From: Zychaea mexicana
Lineage: Eukaryota > Mucoromycota > Mucoromycetes > Mucorales > Lichtheimiaceae
Direction: 5' to 3'
Assembly (NCBI RefSeq): GCF_025766255.1
Contig: NW_026516671.1
Coordinates: forward strand, 708,840 to 772,839
DNA length: 64,000 nucleotides
Shown: positions 1-8,060 of the stretch, piece by piece
How positions within the stretch are numbered: position 1 is the first letter of the stretch
How the letters are laid out: every line of letters begins with the position of its first letter
Position numbers and translations under genes: made by a program
The notes under the pieces: generated by a model
What the model was told of the DNA's origin: nothing
Seen by the model: only the letters and a program-made list of their open reading frames with translations
Databases searched by the model: none

Positions 1-1975
1 TCCCTCTCGTCAACAATGAAGAATAAAATAAATATTTAGCAGAGATACTTATTACATATATTTTGTTTTCTAATACTCTTGGTTGGACTTGGTATATATT
101 TGTTCGGATAAAGCTGTTGGACTTGCAATATGGGACATGGGATTTGTGAGATGATCAATGATAGCGCCGCTATCTAAATTATCAACAAAGGCAAAGCCAT
201 AAGTGTGCATGGATCATGTGCCATCATTAGCAATAGTAATACACATCAACCAAGAAGCACTAAATAGGGAAAGAAGCGTATTGAGAAACAAGAATTAGAC
301 AGGTATGATATACAGTTATCATATTGCTTAATACAAACATCCTACTCTATATTTCTTGTCGTCCCTCGTGTAGATAGCAGATCCAAGAATTCGTTAAAAC
401 AATGGAGCAACCATGGCAAACAGATTATTGACGTCCTCAACACAACATTCCCCGCTCTCAACCAGCTCTGTCAGTGTTCAAAACCAACAACAAGGTATAG
501 AAAGATATTTTGAGCATTTGGAGAAACGAATATAATGAACACTTTGGTTGGTGACGTTTGTCGTATTCCCGGGACTCCAATAACGAACTCCCCCCATACA
601 ATCCTGCAATACACGTTGTTATTGTTCCATACTGTACATCAACTTTTAAAAAAGAACCGCACGCGTAATATTATCCTCTATCCTCTATAGTGTCCAAACA
701 TCGTCAAAAACTTTAGTCCACGAGAAAGCATACATATCTGATTACTGTAGACACAATCCTCTCAATCAGCATAATTAATTGTTTAAATTTAGAAGTAACA
801 GCCTTCATCTTTAAATCACTGATATGTATAATTCTGCCAACACTCTCAGGGGCTTCTAAAGTCTCTTTTCATCACTTTCATTTTTCAGCATATCACGAGG
901 CTTCTGATAATTGTTTGATTAGAGTGCAGCACGCTCCCCACCCGTAGTATTGCTAAGCGGGCAATCGTGGGCGGCATGTAATCCTAGCACGACTATCTTT
1001 CTTTCACATGCTCAAAAGGTGATATACACATGGGTTAATCATTTGCATAAAAGATATATCTTCTTGTTAATAGTCACCTGCGAATATTATCATTAATTTT
1101 TTTCAAGAATTTTCTTTAATAAATGGTGCCTTTTCAAAATCATAGTGCACTTGTGGTAAACCACACTACTTTGAGATTGATCCGGACAACTCATCCCACT
1201 CCGCCGTCTTTGTAACCATTAGAAAGCAGTAGAGAGAACACCACACACACGAATGAATCACAATATTACATAATTAGCGCCATATCAATGATCTCTCAAA
1301 CATGGATCACAATCGAGAATAAGTCAGAACCAACCATTGTATACACATTGTCCTATTCTCGAGTTAGTCAGCACTTCCTTTGAATCTAGCTTATATGAGT
1401 TGAGCGAAGTGAACCTGTCAAAGAGCATTTTTTTTTTGTTGGATGAGCCGGGTAGGAGGCTGAAATTTTACTGGTTGGTCACACGTTCAATGTCAAAGAG
1501 CAGATACCAATTCCAGCACAGACAAAGGTGAAATTCGCCAAACAAGGAGCACACTGATCAAGACAAAGATGACTCTTTACAATCGGAAGGCAACGTTCAT
1601 TGTCATGACCGCCAAACTCAACCTTACCATCCCTCTTCATCTTTGAAACATCCGAAACCCGGCATGCCCCCGATCCATTCATCAGTTCATCCAAACGGAA
1701 GTCTTGACAGCATATCCAAGAGTATATAAAGGGTTGTTAATTCATTCAAAAAAAATCATCTCATATTTGACTCTCACAGTATTTCATATTGTCTTTTATT
1801 CAATCTCTTTTCTCTTATTATCTATTCACAACCCACGTTCATCAAAGCACTCCTTCTCTCAAACAAGGTCTTCCTTTTCTCCTTCTTACAACTTTCTCTC
1901 CAATAACTCTCTTTCTATCTTATCACTATTGTTTTATATACATAAAGCCTTGCACCTTTTTAATCAATATTAAAA
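1..1975. other. Left-edge intergenic region
   Basis: I see no supportable gene on either strand; open frames are short and lack coding character. The last 250 bases form the promoter and pyrimidine-rich 5' leader of the Fanzor-like gene. If that gene lies in a mobile element, its left end should fall in this interval, but I could not pick out a terminal repeat by eye. Confidence 0.6.
1723..1730 (+). promoter_or_regulatory. TATA box of the Fanzor-like gene
   Basis: A TATATAAA sequence lies about 245 bases upstream of the ATG. It is followed by a CT-rich stretch typical of fungal transcription start regions and 5' leaders. This suggests the gene has an ordinary RNA polymerase II promoter and may be expressed. 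Confidence 0.5.
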
Positions 1976-4900
1976 ATGGTGTCTATCAGTGTTGTGGACG
2001 ACAGCGACACTGATATGACTATGGCATCAACCGACTCATTTGATACCGACAATATGCTCGTCGATAATGACCCAACCACTGAAGCTTTTTCGGAAGCGAG
2101 CGACGGTGCGGCTATGATGGATGTGGACGACGAAAATATTGGTTTTGACAACGTTAATGACTACTATGACGACCTGGACAACGACACTAGCTCGGACATT
2201 ACATCATTTGCCGAGAATGAGTACTCCTATGACGAGATAGCGTACATGGAGCAAGAAGGAGCAGCAGGTACTGTTAATATTGTCTTTCCGCTTGTCTTCT
2301 GTGTATGATTTTTATGAGCATGTATATAGTAGACTCACTATGGTTGTACCTTTATATTATTTCCTACATAGAACCGGAGCCAGACTTCATTCGCGACACG
2401 TTTTACGGCCGTGCAAATACATGGCGATTAGCCAGTCGCAAATGCAAGTTGAGGGTAGCATTAAATGAAAATCGTGAGCTGTACAGGGTTCGTACACCAT
2501 TTATAAAGCCGACACCAAGATCATTCATAATTATCTGGACAGAAAAGCTAAAACAATCTTATATTACCGCTAGGCTTACCTTCGTTCGTTAGCTGAGTGG
2601 TACCAAGTACTTCGCAGAGACGCCTTGAACTTGATTAATCTGCATGCTCTGCTTGCATACGAAAGCAACGGTGAGATACCCATGCCAGAATTAGACAATC
2701 AAACGTATTGGGCTACGGCATTTCGGATGGTGATCACCAATCCAACGCAAGAGGCACCTATACCGGCTCGCGTGAGAATAATTTCTGTTGCTTGGGATGA
2801 ATTGTGCATAATATGTACTGTATGTCGCGGAGCATGCAACACTGACAAGCTTTTTACATTATTGACTTCAATAGACTCCAAACCGCTACGCCGTTCTACG
2901 CGATATCTTCAATAATCATTATCAGCCACAACGCCGGAATGCGGAAACAGGAGAAGGTATTAGATATACCGATATGACGCTTTGAAACTGGGTAAATGTA
3001 AAACAATGATAGATGTTTGATACTGACTTTCTTAACAGCGTTATACGATCTTCCTGTTCTTCGTCAAGACTTATCAATGTCCTTGTTGGCTCGATTAGCA
3101 CAGCTTTTTGCAGTGAAAGCTAAAACCAGTAAGTGTAGTGTACACGCAATTCTTACATGCTCTATGTATGATTGTTGAACTATAAAAATAGTTATTAACT
3201 GAGGAAATAAATTTGTAGATGCCATGAACCACCTATGCACCAACATTCCTGTCTTTCTCAAGCGTGTATGGGTCGCATATCTGAGTCATCTGCGCCATGA
3301 ACATAACCTTACCTTTCGAATCAGCATCTCTAGCATGGGTAAACAAAAGAATGATTTTCTTTTCTACTTACATTGGTAATACTGGAGTGTTGTAAATGTC
3401 TCACCGCTATTTTTTATTTTGATCTGCTTATAGCAAAACAAATCTGTAATTTGATCACAACGCACAGAACTCATTTGACTCAGCGTTTAATTGAACGAAT
3501 TCCAGCAGCAATCTTTACCGAGGTGCTTCAATATTTCAAGTAAGAAATTACACATAATTTCTTTTTAATTTGTTATGATGATTATATAGATACAACACAT
3601 AGATAAACACACAGTTATAACTAAGACGGTGTACCTAATTTTAACTTTTTTAGCCAACACACTGCACGATTCGAACAAGCATATGCCGGCGTGAATATCG
3701 CACGCATAGTACAGCGACCGTCCATATCTGGCCCTGCAATGCTAGTGAATTCGCTATCCTTTTATATCTGGCTGTCACTTGAAGCCCAGCCTTTCCAATT
3801 CTGTCCCAAGTGGACTCCACTACCACTTGCCAGTCACCGCATTGGATTCATGCCGGTCGACCTTGAAACTATGTATTACATCGTACGCGAAGTGGACGAG
3901 CGAGATCCTGCACAAGTGCCGGATAATATTGTGGTAATGATATGCGTTTTTACTCTCTTTGTGTTTCCAGTTATTAAAAGATGTTATTTGTTTATTTACT
4001 GGCTTGTTTCCATCGATGCATAAATCTAGAGACCAAATAACGTTCCTGGTCGTGGACGTTGCTTGTCATATCGTGTTTTCAGACAGCAAGATCCTGAGCT
4101 GCTTGAAGGCTTCTGGGAGTCGCTATTTAATATCGGTCACGTAGAGCCGCGACGTTGCCGATACGCAGTCGAAGGTAGATTCCGTATACATTTTGAATAG
4201 TCACAAAGTGGTATCTTTTGATAGTTATATCTAAACTCATCTATCTCATATACATTTATAAATATGATGTGCCCAGGTCAAGGTGTTGTGCCCCCAGAAG
4301 ACCGCGAGCTCAAACTCTTCAATAACACATTCGAAACGGATGGTGTCGCCATTGTGTTCCATTTTCGCAGGCCTGTGACAACGCGGCGTGGAGGTTGGTA
4401 GTACCCTCATAGCATGCAATATTAAAAGTATGTATTTAGTCATGACGACATCTCATAAATCTATTGTTAGAGTATATGCCTTCTAGCTCCAACCAAGTTA
4501 AACGTTTTCCTCGTGAAATTGACGTCACACAGTGGAGAAGAGGAATGTATCATCTCTCCAAAGAGCCAGATGGTCTTGATGCAGAGCGGCTTCACAATTT
4601 TCGAACAGTGTTCATAGACCCAGGTATATATCTAATCATTCTCAAAATATGTAACGGTATCTAAGTAGATATTCTGTATATTATTTTAGGCATCCGGTCT
4701 CTGGTCACTGCTGTAGACACTCTTGAGCCGCTCGAAACACCTGAAGCGAGAGCAGAGCACGTATATCAGCTAAATAACAGAACATACCAGTGAGTACTGC
4801 GTGCAGTATATTTACTTTTAGCAAGTATGAGCGTGTGTCCGCGCTTTTTACATCTGATGCCAACATGTTTGATTTTGTACATAACCCTTTTTCAGGTTCC

Positions 4901-6423
4901 AGTCCATGTTCAAGTGGGCGCTCCAAAAGGAAAACAAAAATCGAGCACGCTATGCTCATGTCGAGCGACAGGCTCATCCGGATCAAGATATCCCGGAGAT
5001 ACAGGAGGTGTATGATATGTTGAGAGGACATCCGGCTTCAGCGCCTACCTCGGAAGGTTTTCGAAACTACATCAGAATGTTGAGTGGCGTGCACAGACAG
5101 TAAGTTACTCAGCTATGTCGATATATACTGGAACACCGTGATCATCATTTTGGCATGAGTATTCACTCTAGTTTTTTTTTTTTTTGAAAAAAATAGCATC
5201 CATGAACAATTTAACAAACATTTCTTTCACCGGGAAACGTTACTCACTCTTTTTTCTGCGCGCAAAAGCGCATTGGAGAATCTTGCCAACAGATTGATAG
5301 GGTTGGATCACCGTGACGATGTAAGTATCTTTCTGTGTATGAGTACTTCTTTGATAAGTCGCAAAAGCTAATATGGTTGCTTCAAGGTACCTCTCCCTTT
5401 CTTCAATAAGGCCTCTAAACGTGAACGCAAAGCTCACCGCCGCCGGTTTCGCCGACCGCGCCGCGCACATGCAGGATTCAGAGTGCAAGACAATTGTATT
5501 GTAGCATATGGTGATGGAAGGTTTAAGCCCTCCTTCAAAGGATTTGAACCTATTCCTGTTGAGGTAAATAAGAAAAATTATCTGGCAGACGTGGTGGAAC
5601 GTTAATTAGTGATGAATGAAGCGAGTGTACTTGCTGTGAATTGACGCCTATATTATAAATAACTTTGTAGACGTTCCGGGCGGTTCTAGCAAGACGTGTA
5701 ATGGTCATGCTCATCGATGAGTATCGAACCAGTGTTGTGTGCAGTGCTTGCGATGCGAACACGCGTCAATTTCGAGACCGTCCAGGAAGTGTTCAAGTGT
5801 GCCGCGAGCACACAAAGCGGAGAATTCGTCGGATCCGCGAACGTGCTGAAGACGATGGACACAGGAACAATGCCCGACGGCAGCTCTGGTGTGTGGATGA
5901 CGACGGCCACAACCTTTGGCCAACATCGACTTGCAACGACCGTCAAAACGCTGGTACGTAATATAGGCTTTGTTACTTTCTATCGTGTATACAAAAAGTT
6001 TGTGAAACAGTGAGAGAGCCTCAATAGCTAATATTATGGTTGTAATAATATACCAAAACTTATTTTCAGCTGATTCCCAATTATCCGTGTACCCATTGAA
6101 GTTCTGCGATCATTGTCCTGCAACTACTGTAAGTGGCTAGTATTTTGATTGTTTTATCACATCAGTCCCTTGATAATGCATCATACGACTTGCGCATAAG
6201 CTTACTCTATCTATACATATAGTTGTGGGACCGTGATAATAATGCTGCGCGAAACATTGGTCGTATCTTCATGCAATACGTTCAAACTGGTAATTTGAGA
6301 TCGCGACCACCGTCGATGCGTCGTCCCGCTGGAGAAAATGTATTAGACGATGCCCACGACGACGAGTTTGAAGAGGAGGAGGAAGACGAAGAAGAGCAGG
6401 CCTTGGCGCCTGTCATGGAGTGA
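1976..6423 (+). CDS. Fanzor (eukaryotic TnpB-like, RNA-guided nuclease family), 18 exons, 929 aa
   Basis: Exons: 1976-2267, 2372-2487, 2574-2771, 2875-2956, 3039-3128, 3219-3338, 3434-3539, 3654-3933, 4087-4174, 4277-4393, 4471-4623, 4690-4789, 4896-5099, 5197-5320, 5387-5563, 5671-5953, 6070-6128, 6223-6423. They sum to 2790 nt with no internal stop. The product matches the published Fanzor/TnpB C-terminal signature (Bao and Jurka): D, 125-275 residues, [TS][TS]xx, C4 zinc finger, 5-50 residues, RD. Here RuvC-I is FIDPGIRSLVTAV (D546). After 222 residues comes TSVVCSAC (C773, C776), then CDHC (C856, C859), and seven residues later RDNNAARNI (D868). Glu766 in LIDEYRTS is the likely third acidic residue. 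A basic cluster (about 701-718) could bind RNA or act as a nuclear localisation signal. The first 97 residues are acidic, and the protein ends in an acidic Glu-rich tail. By family it would cut DNA with a guide RNA encoded next to the gene. Weakest splice calls: donor 2488 (GTTCGT), donor 4394 and acceptor 4086. Confidence 0.9.
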
Positions 6424-7037
6424 GTGGAGGGCCACTCCAACGAGATACAAATTGGGGGGAGGTAAGTATCATATTCCATACTCGTTTCTTTACTTTTGTA
6501 ACAGCTGTCTAACTTTTGTTTCTTTTCATGCATACGCTTTAATACACTTCTTTCCTTCTTTCTGTTGCATTTATTCTCCGCTTCTTATTTCTAATTTTTC
6601 TTGGATGAATAAAAGACCCCCAAAGGAAGCTTACCAAGGTGATCACCAGCTTGATAAGGTTTTTTCAAGGATAAGGATTCATTATATATAAGGCATGTTC
6701 TCTCGTTCTCAATAAGCTCTTCAATTTAGTGATCTGCTCCTTTATTTTATATCGTGATGATCTCAAAGCAGCTGAATTACACCTACTTGCTATCATACAC
6801 GTCCTCCCTTGCACACATGGGTTGATCTTGAAACCATGGTGCTAACCCAAAGTCCTATACATAACGCTTAGCTAGGTTACGCTCTCATGGTTGATACAAT
6901 TCTTACTATCTTCCCCAGCTGAAGACTATTTTGAACGTGTGATTCACACACCTTCACTTTTAACGAGCCGCCGCGAAAAGCGCATAAATTTTTGTTTTTT
7001 TCTTCCTGAACCTCTCAAACAAAAAAAGTCAACAGAC
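6424..7037 (+). other. 3' region of the Fanzor-like gene and spacer to RRP46
   Basis: It holds a pyrimidine-rich 3' region with an AATAAA at 6607-6612, a likely polyadenylation signal, and then the RRP46 upstream region. No second gene is seen. In characterised Fanzor and TnpB loci the guide RNA scaffold overlaps or follows the 3' end of the nuclease gene, so this is the first place to look for one. I could not define a convincing structured RNA or element end by eye. Confidence 0.5.
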
Positions 7038-8060
7038 ATGGTGAAACGACCCGATCGCCGCACGGAAAACACACAATTACGCGCATTTTCAGCATCACAA
7101 AACTTACTAAATCAAGCTGACGGTTCAGCAAAGTTCGATCTAGGTAATTTGTTCAACAGATCCCTTTTTGTCCCCATCAATGTGCCCTAACTTGTCATTT
7201 TAAGGCGAGACATCGGTCATGGTCTCTGTTGTTGGTCCGGCCGAAGTGCAATTACGCGACGAAAAGATGGACGAAGCCACAGTAGAAGTCGTTGTTCGAT
7301 CTGCTGTAGGTGTGTCTACCACTACTGAGAAACTCCAAGAACAATTATTACGGACTGCAGTCGAGCCTGTCATTTTGGGTGGCATGATGCCGCGTACCCT
7401 TGTCCAGATCGTTGTTCAGATTATCAAGGACGATGGATCGGTATGTTTTATTTTCACTCTGCCTTTAAGAGTAAAATATAAGTTTGAAAGAATGGCTTCA
7501 TTTTTGGTGGGTCTGTAGAATACTAAAATGTAATCACACGTTTTTTTTATATACATAGGTGCTGGCAGCAGCGGTGAACGGGATCACATTGGCACTATTG
7601 GATGCAGGCATCCCTATGAAGTTTATGACAGCTGCCATGACATGTATGATCGATCGTGTTTCCAAAGATATCGTCATGGACCCGACCAGTGAAGAATTAG
7701 AGGTAATGCGAAGAAGAAAGATCAGCCACAAAATGAATAGTTGTTGATTAAATTATTGCTATAGAACGCATCTTCGGTCCATATGTTTGCATTTGACAAC
7801 CTCAACAAGACGCCTCATGTCTTGTTATCCGACTCATCCGGTCAGTTTAGTCAGGAACAAGTAAGTTGAAAAGAAGGGGACTTGACAGTTACGGTCTATA
7901 CAGAAGCGTGAAGAAGCTTATCTGAGCCATCCCCCCCCCACCTTAGTATTTCGAATGTCATGACAGATGCTATGAAGCGGCAGATAAGGTCCAAGGCTTC
8001 TTGCGCGTGGCTGTGGAATCAAAAAAGCAGAAAGAATATCAGCAAACTGTAAATGAATAA
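7038..8060 (+). CDS. RRP46: Exosome core subunit Rrp46 (EXOSC5), RNase PH-like
   Basis: Five exons (7038-7143, 7205-7440, 7559-7702, 7765-7860, 7947-8060) give 231 residues, the usual length for Rrp46/EXOSC5. One RNase PH fold fills the protein: LRAFSASQNLLNQADGSAKF then DLGETSVMVSVVGPAEV near the N-terminus, and AVNGITLALLDAGIPM in the middle. These match the Rrp46 branch rather than Rrp41. Family knowledge: Rrp46 is one of six PH-like ring subunits of the nuclear and cytoplasmic RNA exosome. It is structural and not itself catalytic in eukaryotes, and it works in rRNA processing and RNA decay. The ATG at 7038 was chosen because it opens directly into the conserved N-terminal strand; upstream in-frame codons look like untranslated leader. 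The stop codon overlaps an AATAAA. Confidence 0.93.

Follow-up and report, generated by a model that had tools for sequence, protein, structure and literature searches.

A stretch of 64,000 nucleotides from contig NW_026516671.1 of Zychaea mexicana (hereafter the window) carries a gene for a Fanzor1 protein, which lies as cargo within a 9,067-bp Mutator-like element (MULE). Judging from its sequence, the gene product probably acts as an RNA-guided DNA endonuclease carried by this DNA transposon. Fanzors are eukaryotic relatives of CRISPR nucleases, and to our knowledge it is not yet settled how they help eukaryotic transposons.

A nuclease gene carried by a Mutator-like element

The Fanzor1 gene occupies the right half of the MULE, and the left half, beyond the window, holds a decayed MULE transposase (Table 1). 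The element ends at position 6620 on the right and at position -2446 on the left; the first-pass annotation missed the cargo status of the gene because this end is 2.4 kb beyond the border of the window. A search for further copies across the genome (50.3 Mb, 305 contigs) found the Fanzor at eleven places at the DNA level, plus a fragment on contig C44. Similarity between copies ends at window positions 6620-6626 on the right and at C284:706393 on the left, and the right edges of seven copies, including the window copy, diverge beyond GACCCCCA (the right limit applies to the copies that extend so far; C232 and C252 are cut off by the ends of their contigs, and in C244 the last bases are lost). 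The DNA beyond both ends gave no other match in the genome. The left terminal inverted repeat (TIR) is visible in L030 and in other copies; its core TATTCATCAAGAAAAATTA occurs at 42 genomic sites with at most one mismatch and the reversed control at none, the right end of the window copy being absent from these sites owing to its extra G. The target duplication of the window copy (CATAGGAAG on the left, at L030:1385-1393) matches its right counterpart at 8/9 positions, and duplications on both sides were also read for C251 (CAGGTAGTT, 9/9), C244 (CAGATAAAG, 9/9) and, in our own reading, C274 (CAGCGGAAT/CAGCGGAGT). The MULE domain PF10551 was found in the left half of the sibling copy C252 (3e-9) and below the curated cut-off in the window copy (2e-4); wherever the left half of a copy was read (seven copies), MULE transposase sequence and Fanzor occur in one element. 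Given the TIRs, the 9-bp duplications and the MULE domain, the Fanzor1 gene is therefore MULE cargo.

The window copy has no intact transposase. Compared with the majority of seven copies, its transposase half contains frame breaks and eight single-base indels over approximately 2.4 kb, introns included, and two longer indels of 27 and 4 bases; a third long difference, at the edge, was rejected as an artefact of the fixed length. This copy would thus need the transposase of another MULE in order to move. The first 2.4 kb of the element gave 36 genomic matches, Fanzor-bearing copies counted in, which indicates many relatives of the element without a Fanzor. Among five Fanzor-free loci read in part and by eye, the same left TIR accompanies another MULE-type gene on C77 (L097) and a mariner-like gene at C24:419210 (L095).

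Joining the 18 exons gives one open frame, as the first-pass annotation had claimed, although with our own exon boundaries the protein has 948 residues where the earlier model had 929. The 19 extra residues all precede the first RuvC Asp, so that D546, E766 and D868 of the shorter model become D565, E785 and D887. All 17 introns are GT-AG and, from their coordinates, 66-116 nt long. The four motifs quoted earlier (FIDPGIRSL, TSVVCSAC, CDHC and RDNNAARNI) were all recovered, and the two spacings (222 residues from D565 to T788 and 7 residues from C878 to R886) were confirmed; they satisfy the published Fanzor/TnpB signature D-X(125,275)-[TS][TS]-XX-C4 zinc finger-X(5,50)-RD (PMC3627910). The acidic extensions noted at both ends are real as well, with D+E contents of 30% (residues 1-97) and 41% (residues 910-948), and an acidic C-terminal tail is also present in two Lichtheimia relatives (P0001 and P0002).

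Table 1. Features of the element and of its Fanzor1 gene (window positions).
Feature	Position	Strand	Remarks
MULE element in window	1..6620	+	whole element C284:706393-715459, 9,067 bp
LTR-like repeat (long terminal repeat)	1152..1849	+	directly upstream of the Fanzor1 gene; ends approximate
Fanzor1 gene	1976..6423	+	18 exons, 948 aa, no internal stop
Exons 1-6	1976-2267, 2372-2487, 2574-2771, 2875-2956, 3039-3128, 3219-3338	+	
Exons 7-12	3434-3539, 3654-3933, 4030-4174, 4277-4393, 4471-4623, 4690-4789	+	
Exons 13-18	4896-5099, 5197-5320, 5387-5563, 5671-5953, 6070-6128, 6223-6423	+	
TDG motif (T497-D-G)	4336..4344	+	residue 497; Fanzor1 WED-domain hallmark (PMC10711439)
RuvC-I Asp D565	4617..4619	+	in DPG
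Alternative RuvC-II Glu E785	5719..5721	+	6 residues before zinc finger; aligns with LIDEFRTS of solved PpFz1
C4 zinc finger	5740..6116	+	putative ligands C792, C795, C875, C878
RuvC-III Asp D887	6235..6237	+	in RDNNAARNI
Predicted 5' guide-RNA scaffold part	6391..6461	+	hairpins ~6396-6413 and 6416-6439; G run 6454-6459
Possible 3' UTR (untranslated region) intron or loop	6462..6615	+	5' splice site GTAAGTATC at 6462
Right TIR TAATTTTTCTTGGATGAATAAAAGACCCC	6592..6620	+	reverse complement of left TIR core; one extra G
CCCCCAA	6617..6623	+	right TIR end and first target-duplication bases; predicted pairing with UUGGGGG 6452-6458
Right target duplication CAAAGGAAG	6621..6629	+	9 bp; adjoins element end

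For the family assignment we looked for a DPG at RuvC-I together with an alternative Glu six positions ahead of the zinc finger, and both were found (D565-P-G, and six residues between E785 and C792). The protein also contains the TDG motif that is described as typical of the WED domain in Fanzor1 proteins; as a further Fanzor1 trait, the transposon that carries the gene is a eukaryotic DNA element and not IS607. A protein search with residues 430-930 (501 residues) retrieved five proteins, from Lichtheimia ornata (two), Circinella minor, Circinella umbellata and Amoeboaphelidium. The closest, annotated merely as hypothetical proteins, were the two of L. ornata (P0001 and P0002, 36-38% identity across 93-96% of the query) and that of C. 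minor (P0003, 52% identity across 30% of the query). The top matches of a profile built from the five relatives and the window protein (profile A1), in which the TDG columns are invariant across all six sequences, were three solved Fanzor1 proteins, from Parasitella (5.9e-8), Guillardia (1.9e-4) and Spizellomyces (0.013). In this comparison PpFz1, the Parasitella protein, has LIDEFRTSSFCPKC aligned to the LvdEyRTSvvChaC stretch of the profile, for which the window protein reads LIDEYRTSVVCSAC. By motif and profile comparison the window protein is thus classified as a Fanzor1.

The LTR-like repeat upstream of the gene is common to the window copy and seven aligned copies, and more than 20 similar stretches occur elsewhere in the genome; three pairs of these, on C99, C254 and C131, share one orientation at a spacing of approximately 5.6 kb. 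It may hold the promoter of the Fanzor gene. A segment of approximately 75 bp within it (window 1417-1501), flanked by what by eye is a direct repeat GTCAAAGAGC, is missing from its relatives elsewhere. Between transposase and LTR-like repeat (window 308-979), segments of approximately 720, 280 and 670 bp are present or absent among the copies, resembling internal deletions.

Copies of the gene and selection

An intact Fanzor frame was found in two of the ten near copies, the window copy and that on C251, which keeps 18/18 exons, every splice-site dinucleotide and the stop. The frame is broken by frameshift or insertion, or truncated, in the other eight, and truncated as well in the divergent copy C274; assembly errors may account for some of the damage. 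Between the window copy and C251 the nonsynonymous and synonymous divergences (dN and dS) were 0.0036 and 0.0354 (dN/dS 0.10), with 24 of the 30 differences in the coding sequence at codon position 3 (p 2e-7) and approximately 22 of the 30 synonymous (p 4e-9; site numbers back-calculated from dN/dS). Pairs including broken copies had higher dN/dS (0.14-0.54 over all pairs). Judging from these substitutions, the nuclease was under selection while the transposase of the window copy decayed, and the coding sequence looks selected for function, in line with the first-pass suggestion that this copy may be functional.

An alternative is that the window copy is a recently inserted and now dead passenger, its frame open merely through youth and the selection having acted in source copies. 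The eight damaged near copies are in keeping with this, as are the decayed transposase half (IMIECSP in the MULE domain where a sibling has IMIDCSP) and the mismatch already present in the target duplication. Against it, the window copy and C251 have reached 3.5% synonymous divergence, yet both frames are undamaged and dN/dS is 0.10, which indicates that selection acted on the two lineages during most of the time since they separated, and we consider a dead passenger unlikely. That the gene has instead been domesticated from a Fanzor into a host gene would agree with the intact frame under selection and with the 18-exon structure kept in C251; the gene, however, is flanked by transposon ends and a target duplication, and it has nine near copies elsewhere in the genome, so that domestication appears very improbable. 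An RNA-guided nuclease kept as transposon cargo remains our preferred reading.

Other Fanzor sequences were also seen in this genome. A distant relative lies on C262 (L041, ~3740-5650), where by eye an inverted repeat ACGGGCACGAC...GTCGTGCCCGT is found near its 3' end. A second Fanzor lineage (C57, C246, C79 and C295; L042-L045) has a compact zinc finger EERHTTVTCSSC...CRGCG...HRD, and a DPG in C57, C246 and C79; a 4.5-kb stretch common to C57 and C246 is 98% identical, so that this lineage moved or was duplicated recently.

Predicted target-adjacent motif and guide RNA

In the mechanism that we propose, the 3' end of the transcript, reading through the right TIR into host DNA, would be the guide RNA. 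Its scaffold would close with a stem of UUGGGGG, the CCCC of the element and the CA of the target duplication, and the guide would consist of what is left of the duplication together with the right flank (in the window copy, AAGGAAGCTTACC...). An element-free allele would be cut by the nuclease where the guide match is immediately preceded by ACNCA, and the element would return through repair templated by the occupied copy; the latter would be spared, because its guide match follows CCCCA and not ACNCA. Fanzor1 guide RNAs originate from the 3' end (PMC10711439, PMC10432273), Fanzor1 reRNAs have been predicted to incorporate TIR and target-site duplication in the scaffold and to extend ~15 nt past the duplication (PMC10711439), and for SpuFz1 a 75-nt scaffold and a 14-15-nt guide are given (PMC10432273).

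The motif was read from the insertion flanks. ACNCA is present in the left flanks of 7/7 readable Fanzor-bearing insertions, C252 (left side only) fitting only with a 10-bp duplication, and in 4/12 distinct Fanzor-free insertions (p 0.013 for the difference; earlier values of 0.0006 and 0.003, from classes defined when a 10-bp duplication was not yet admitted for every row, were replaced). It begins at 0.4% of window positions. The right flanks of the Fanzor-bearing insertions start with CA in 7/7 readable cases, and this CA provides the bases extending the UUGGGGG/CCCC stem. The count omits C223, C117, C254 and C248 (truncated or without a left end in the assembly), C239 (degraded left end) and TIR matches that are right ends; C88 and C71, with CAGCCTACT adjoining the element in both, were assumed to be two ends of one insertion, and repeated flanks were counted once (C90 three times, C242 three times, C66/C162, C49/C182 and C288/C30). 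The pattern suggests ACNCA as the predicted target-adjacent motif (TAM), with the guide beginning after CA. Read from outside, the right ends of the Fanzor-free relatives are mostly GAGTTGCTC and those of the Fanzor-bearing class GGGGTCTTT (GGGGTCTTG in C254); the pairing CCCC thus marks the Fanzor-bearing class.

ACNCA could instead reflect only which sites the transposase of this MULE subfamily prefers and be uninformative on the TAM, a real possibility that we rate somewhat below an even chance. The pattern was spotted post hoc, and the four Fanzor-free left ends with ACNCA (C24:419210, C250, C263 and C242, two of which need a 10-bp duplication) are far above chance (p 2e-6), which a transposase target preference may explain; in SpuFz1 elements, moreover, CA precedes the 5' repeat in Fanzor-bearing and Fanzor-free ghost elements alike (PMC10432273). 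Against this reading, 8/12 Fanzor-free insertions with the same left TIR have no ACNCA, and the two with duplications visible on both sides, C55 (8/9) and C90, by eye lack even the CA at the start.

As to the guide RNA itself, the stop codon of the Fanzor gene sits inside the second predicted hairpin, and positions 6391-6465 differ from the divergent copy C274 by no substitution and by one extra G in the G run of C274, where introns are 90% identical (local alignment; another alignment gave 82%). The 42/42 UTR positions kept in C274 are weakly significant at the intron rate (p 0.012), and a comparison with codon position 3 is likewise weak (p 0.005); both are fairer measures than the length of the identical run. 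Among the close copies 1/42 UTR columns is polymorphic vs 156/1430 intron columns. The 3' block was also sought in the distant relatives C262, C57 and C79, and chance matches only were obtained. In the predicted UUGGGGG/CCCCCAA stem the five G-C pairs have probabilities of 0.97-0.99 and the outer two pairs of 0.95 and 0.72. The AATAAA at window 6608-6613, in the right TIR and 7 bp before the element end, is a possible poly(A) signal that could set the guide length; by eye, C254 and C274 lack it.

For 20 bases of the right flank no other perfect match exists genome-wide, and 27/28 of the two-mismatch matches are one identical 20-mer. A guide target elsewhere was rejected: of the eight sites read, seven are members of a single repeat family, in which the upstream sequence is unrelated and no ACNCA adjoins the match, and the eighth is unrelated, so that the matches were attributed to chance. 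Rfam models at gathering score gave no hit in the five of these eight sites scanned, nor in the window.

The spliceosome might also join scaffold and guide, by removing an intron from 6462 to 6615 and leaving a UUGGGGG-GAGA-CCCCCAA hairpin beside the guide. Splicing would then join the scaffold hairpin and the host-derived guide across the right TIR, with the target-site CA within the hairpin. The donor at 6462 has the best score among the 3,789 GT sites on the forward strand of the window, no AG occurs over the 111 nt ahead of the acceptor at 6615, and the spliced 80-nt stretch folds well (z -3.66, 1/500 shuffles as good, vs -0.20 unspliced) and is close in length to the 75-nt SpuFz1 scaffold (PMC10432273), whole Fz1 RNAs being 75-150 nt (PMC11423790). 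The acceptor at 6615, however, scores -2.0, under those of all 17 introns and equalled or exceeded by 86/169 exonic AGs, and with the normal-scoring acceptor at 6504 the intron would measure 43 nt, less than any of the 17. The AG-free gap is unexceptional (11th longest among 3,783 in the window), and the stem needs no splicing, as it forms unspliced as well. We therefore regard this route as improbable, and prefer an unspliced guide RNA read through the right TIR.

Several further results speak against a nuclease with the proposed guide RNA. The PF07282 match of the window protein (E 8e-4) speaks for the family, as does that of the relative P0001 (1.4e-9), but it remained under the Pfam cut-off, probably because 79 residues separate the Cys pairs of its zinc finger, and the window protein alone, searched against the PDB, found no Fanzor but only the unrelated Sul3 (E of at least 0.09). 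The AlphaFold model of P0001 was poor (pLDDT 41.7, pTM 0.29; eight sequences, too few homologues). The two predicted hairpins fold no better than shuffles (z -0.5 to -1.0), the opposite strand of the 3' block folds better (z -2.4), and the 75-nt run identical to C274 lies within shuffled identities (mean longest 64.8, maximum 121). The 8/9 target duplication would moreover leave the guide imperfect against its own left copy.

Relation to known Fanzor systems

Fanzor1 genes in Mutator-type elements of Mucorales are already known, and transposase sequence in the same element is a modest variation. The Fanzor1-MuDr elements ROr-4, PBl-3 and MCi-4 of Rhizopus, Phycomyces and Mucor (Bao and Jurka 2013, PMC3627910) share with the present element a Fanzor1, inverted repeats and 9-bp target duplications. 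Whereas no MuDR transposase is encoded by them according to that paper, transposase sequence (decayed in the window copy) accompanies the Fanzor here. PpFz1 of Parasitella parasitica (PDB 9cf0), likewise a Mucorales Fanzor1, is the best profile match, with LIDEFRTS and RD aligned; its TAM is 5'-ATN-3' (PMC11423790), unlike the ACNCA predicted here, and most Fz1 proteins have 600-700 aa (PMC11423790) vs 948 aa for the window protein. SpuFz1 of Spizellomyces punctatus is similarly transposon-borne, in many copies, with CA before the 5' repeat, and its guide RNA comes from the 3' end and runs through the inverted repeat (PMC10432273), as is predicted here; it differs in its TAM, CATA (PMC10432273), and its profile match is weak (0.013). 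Among open-licence papers on Fanzors, no title on Lichtheimiaceae was found.

With regard to the surroundings, the element stops approximately 400 bp before the next downstream gene (window ~7038-8055), which by eye looks like one for an exosome subunit of the RNase PH type. Within the window, a 666-aa protein has 58-67% identity to proteins of Phascolomyces (Lichtheimiaceae, Mucorales), Fennellomyces and Circinella.

The element adds a Mucorales case in which transposase sequence and a Fanzor are found within one Mutator-type element. A single genome here offers two intact copies, readable ends, Fanzor-free relatives with the same TIRs and a checkable prediction, ACNCA, for the motif that the nuclease would recognize.

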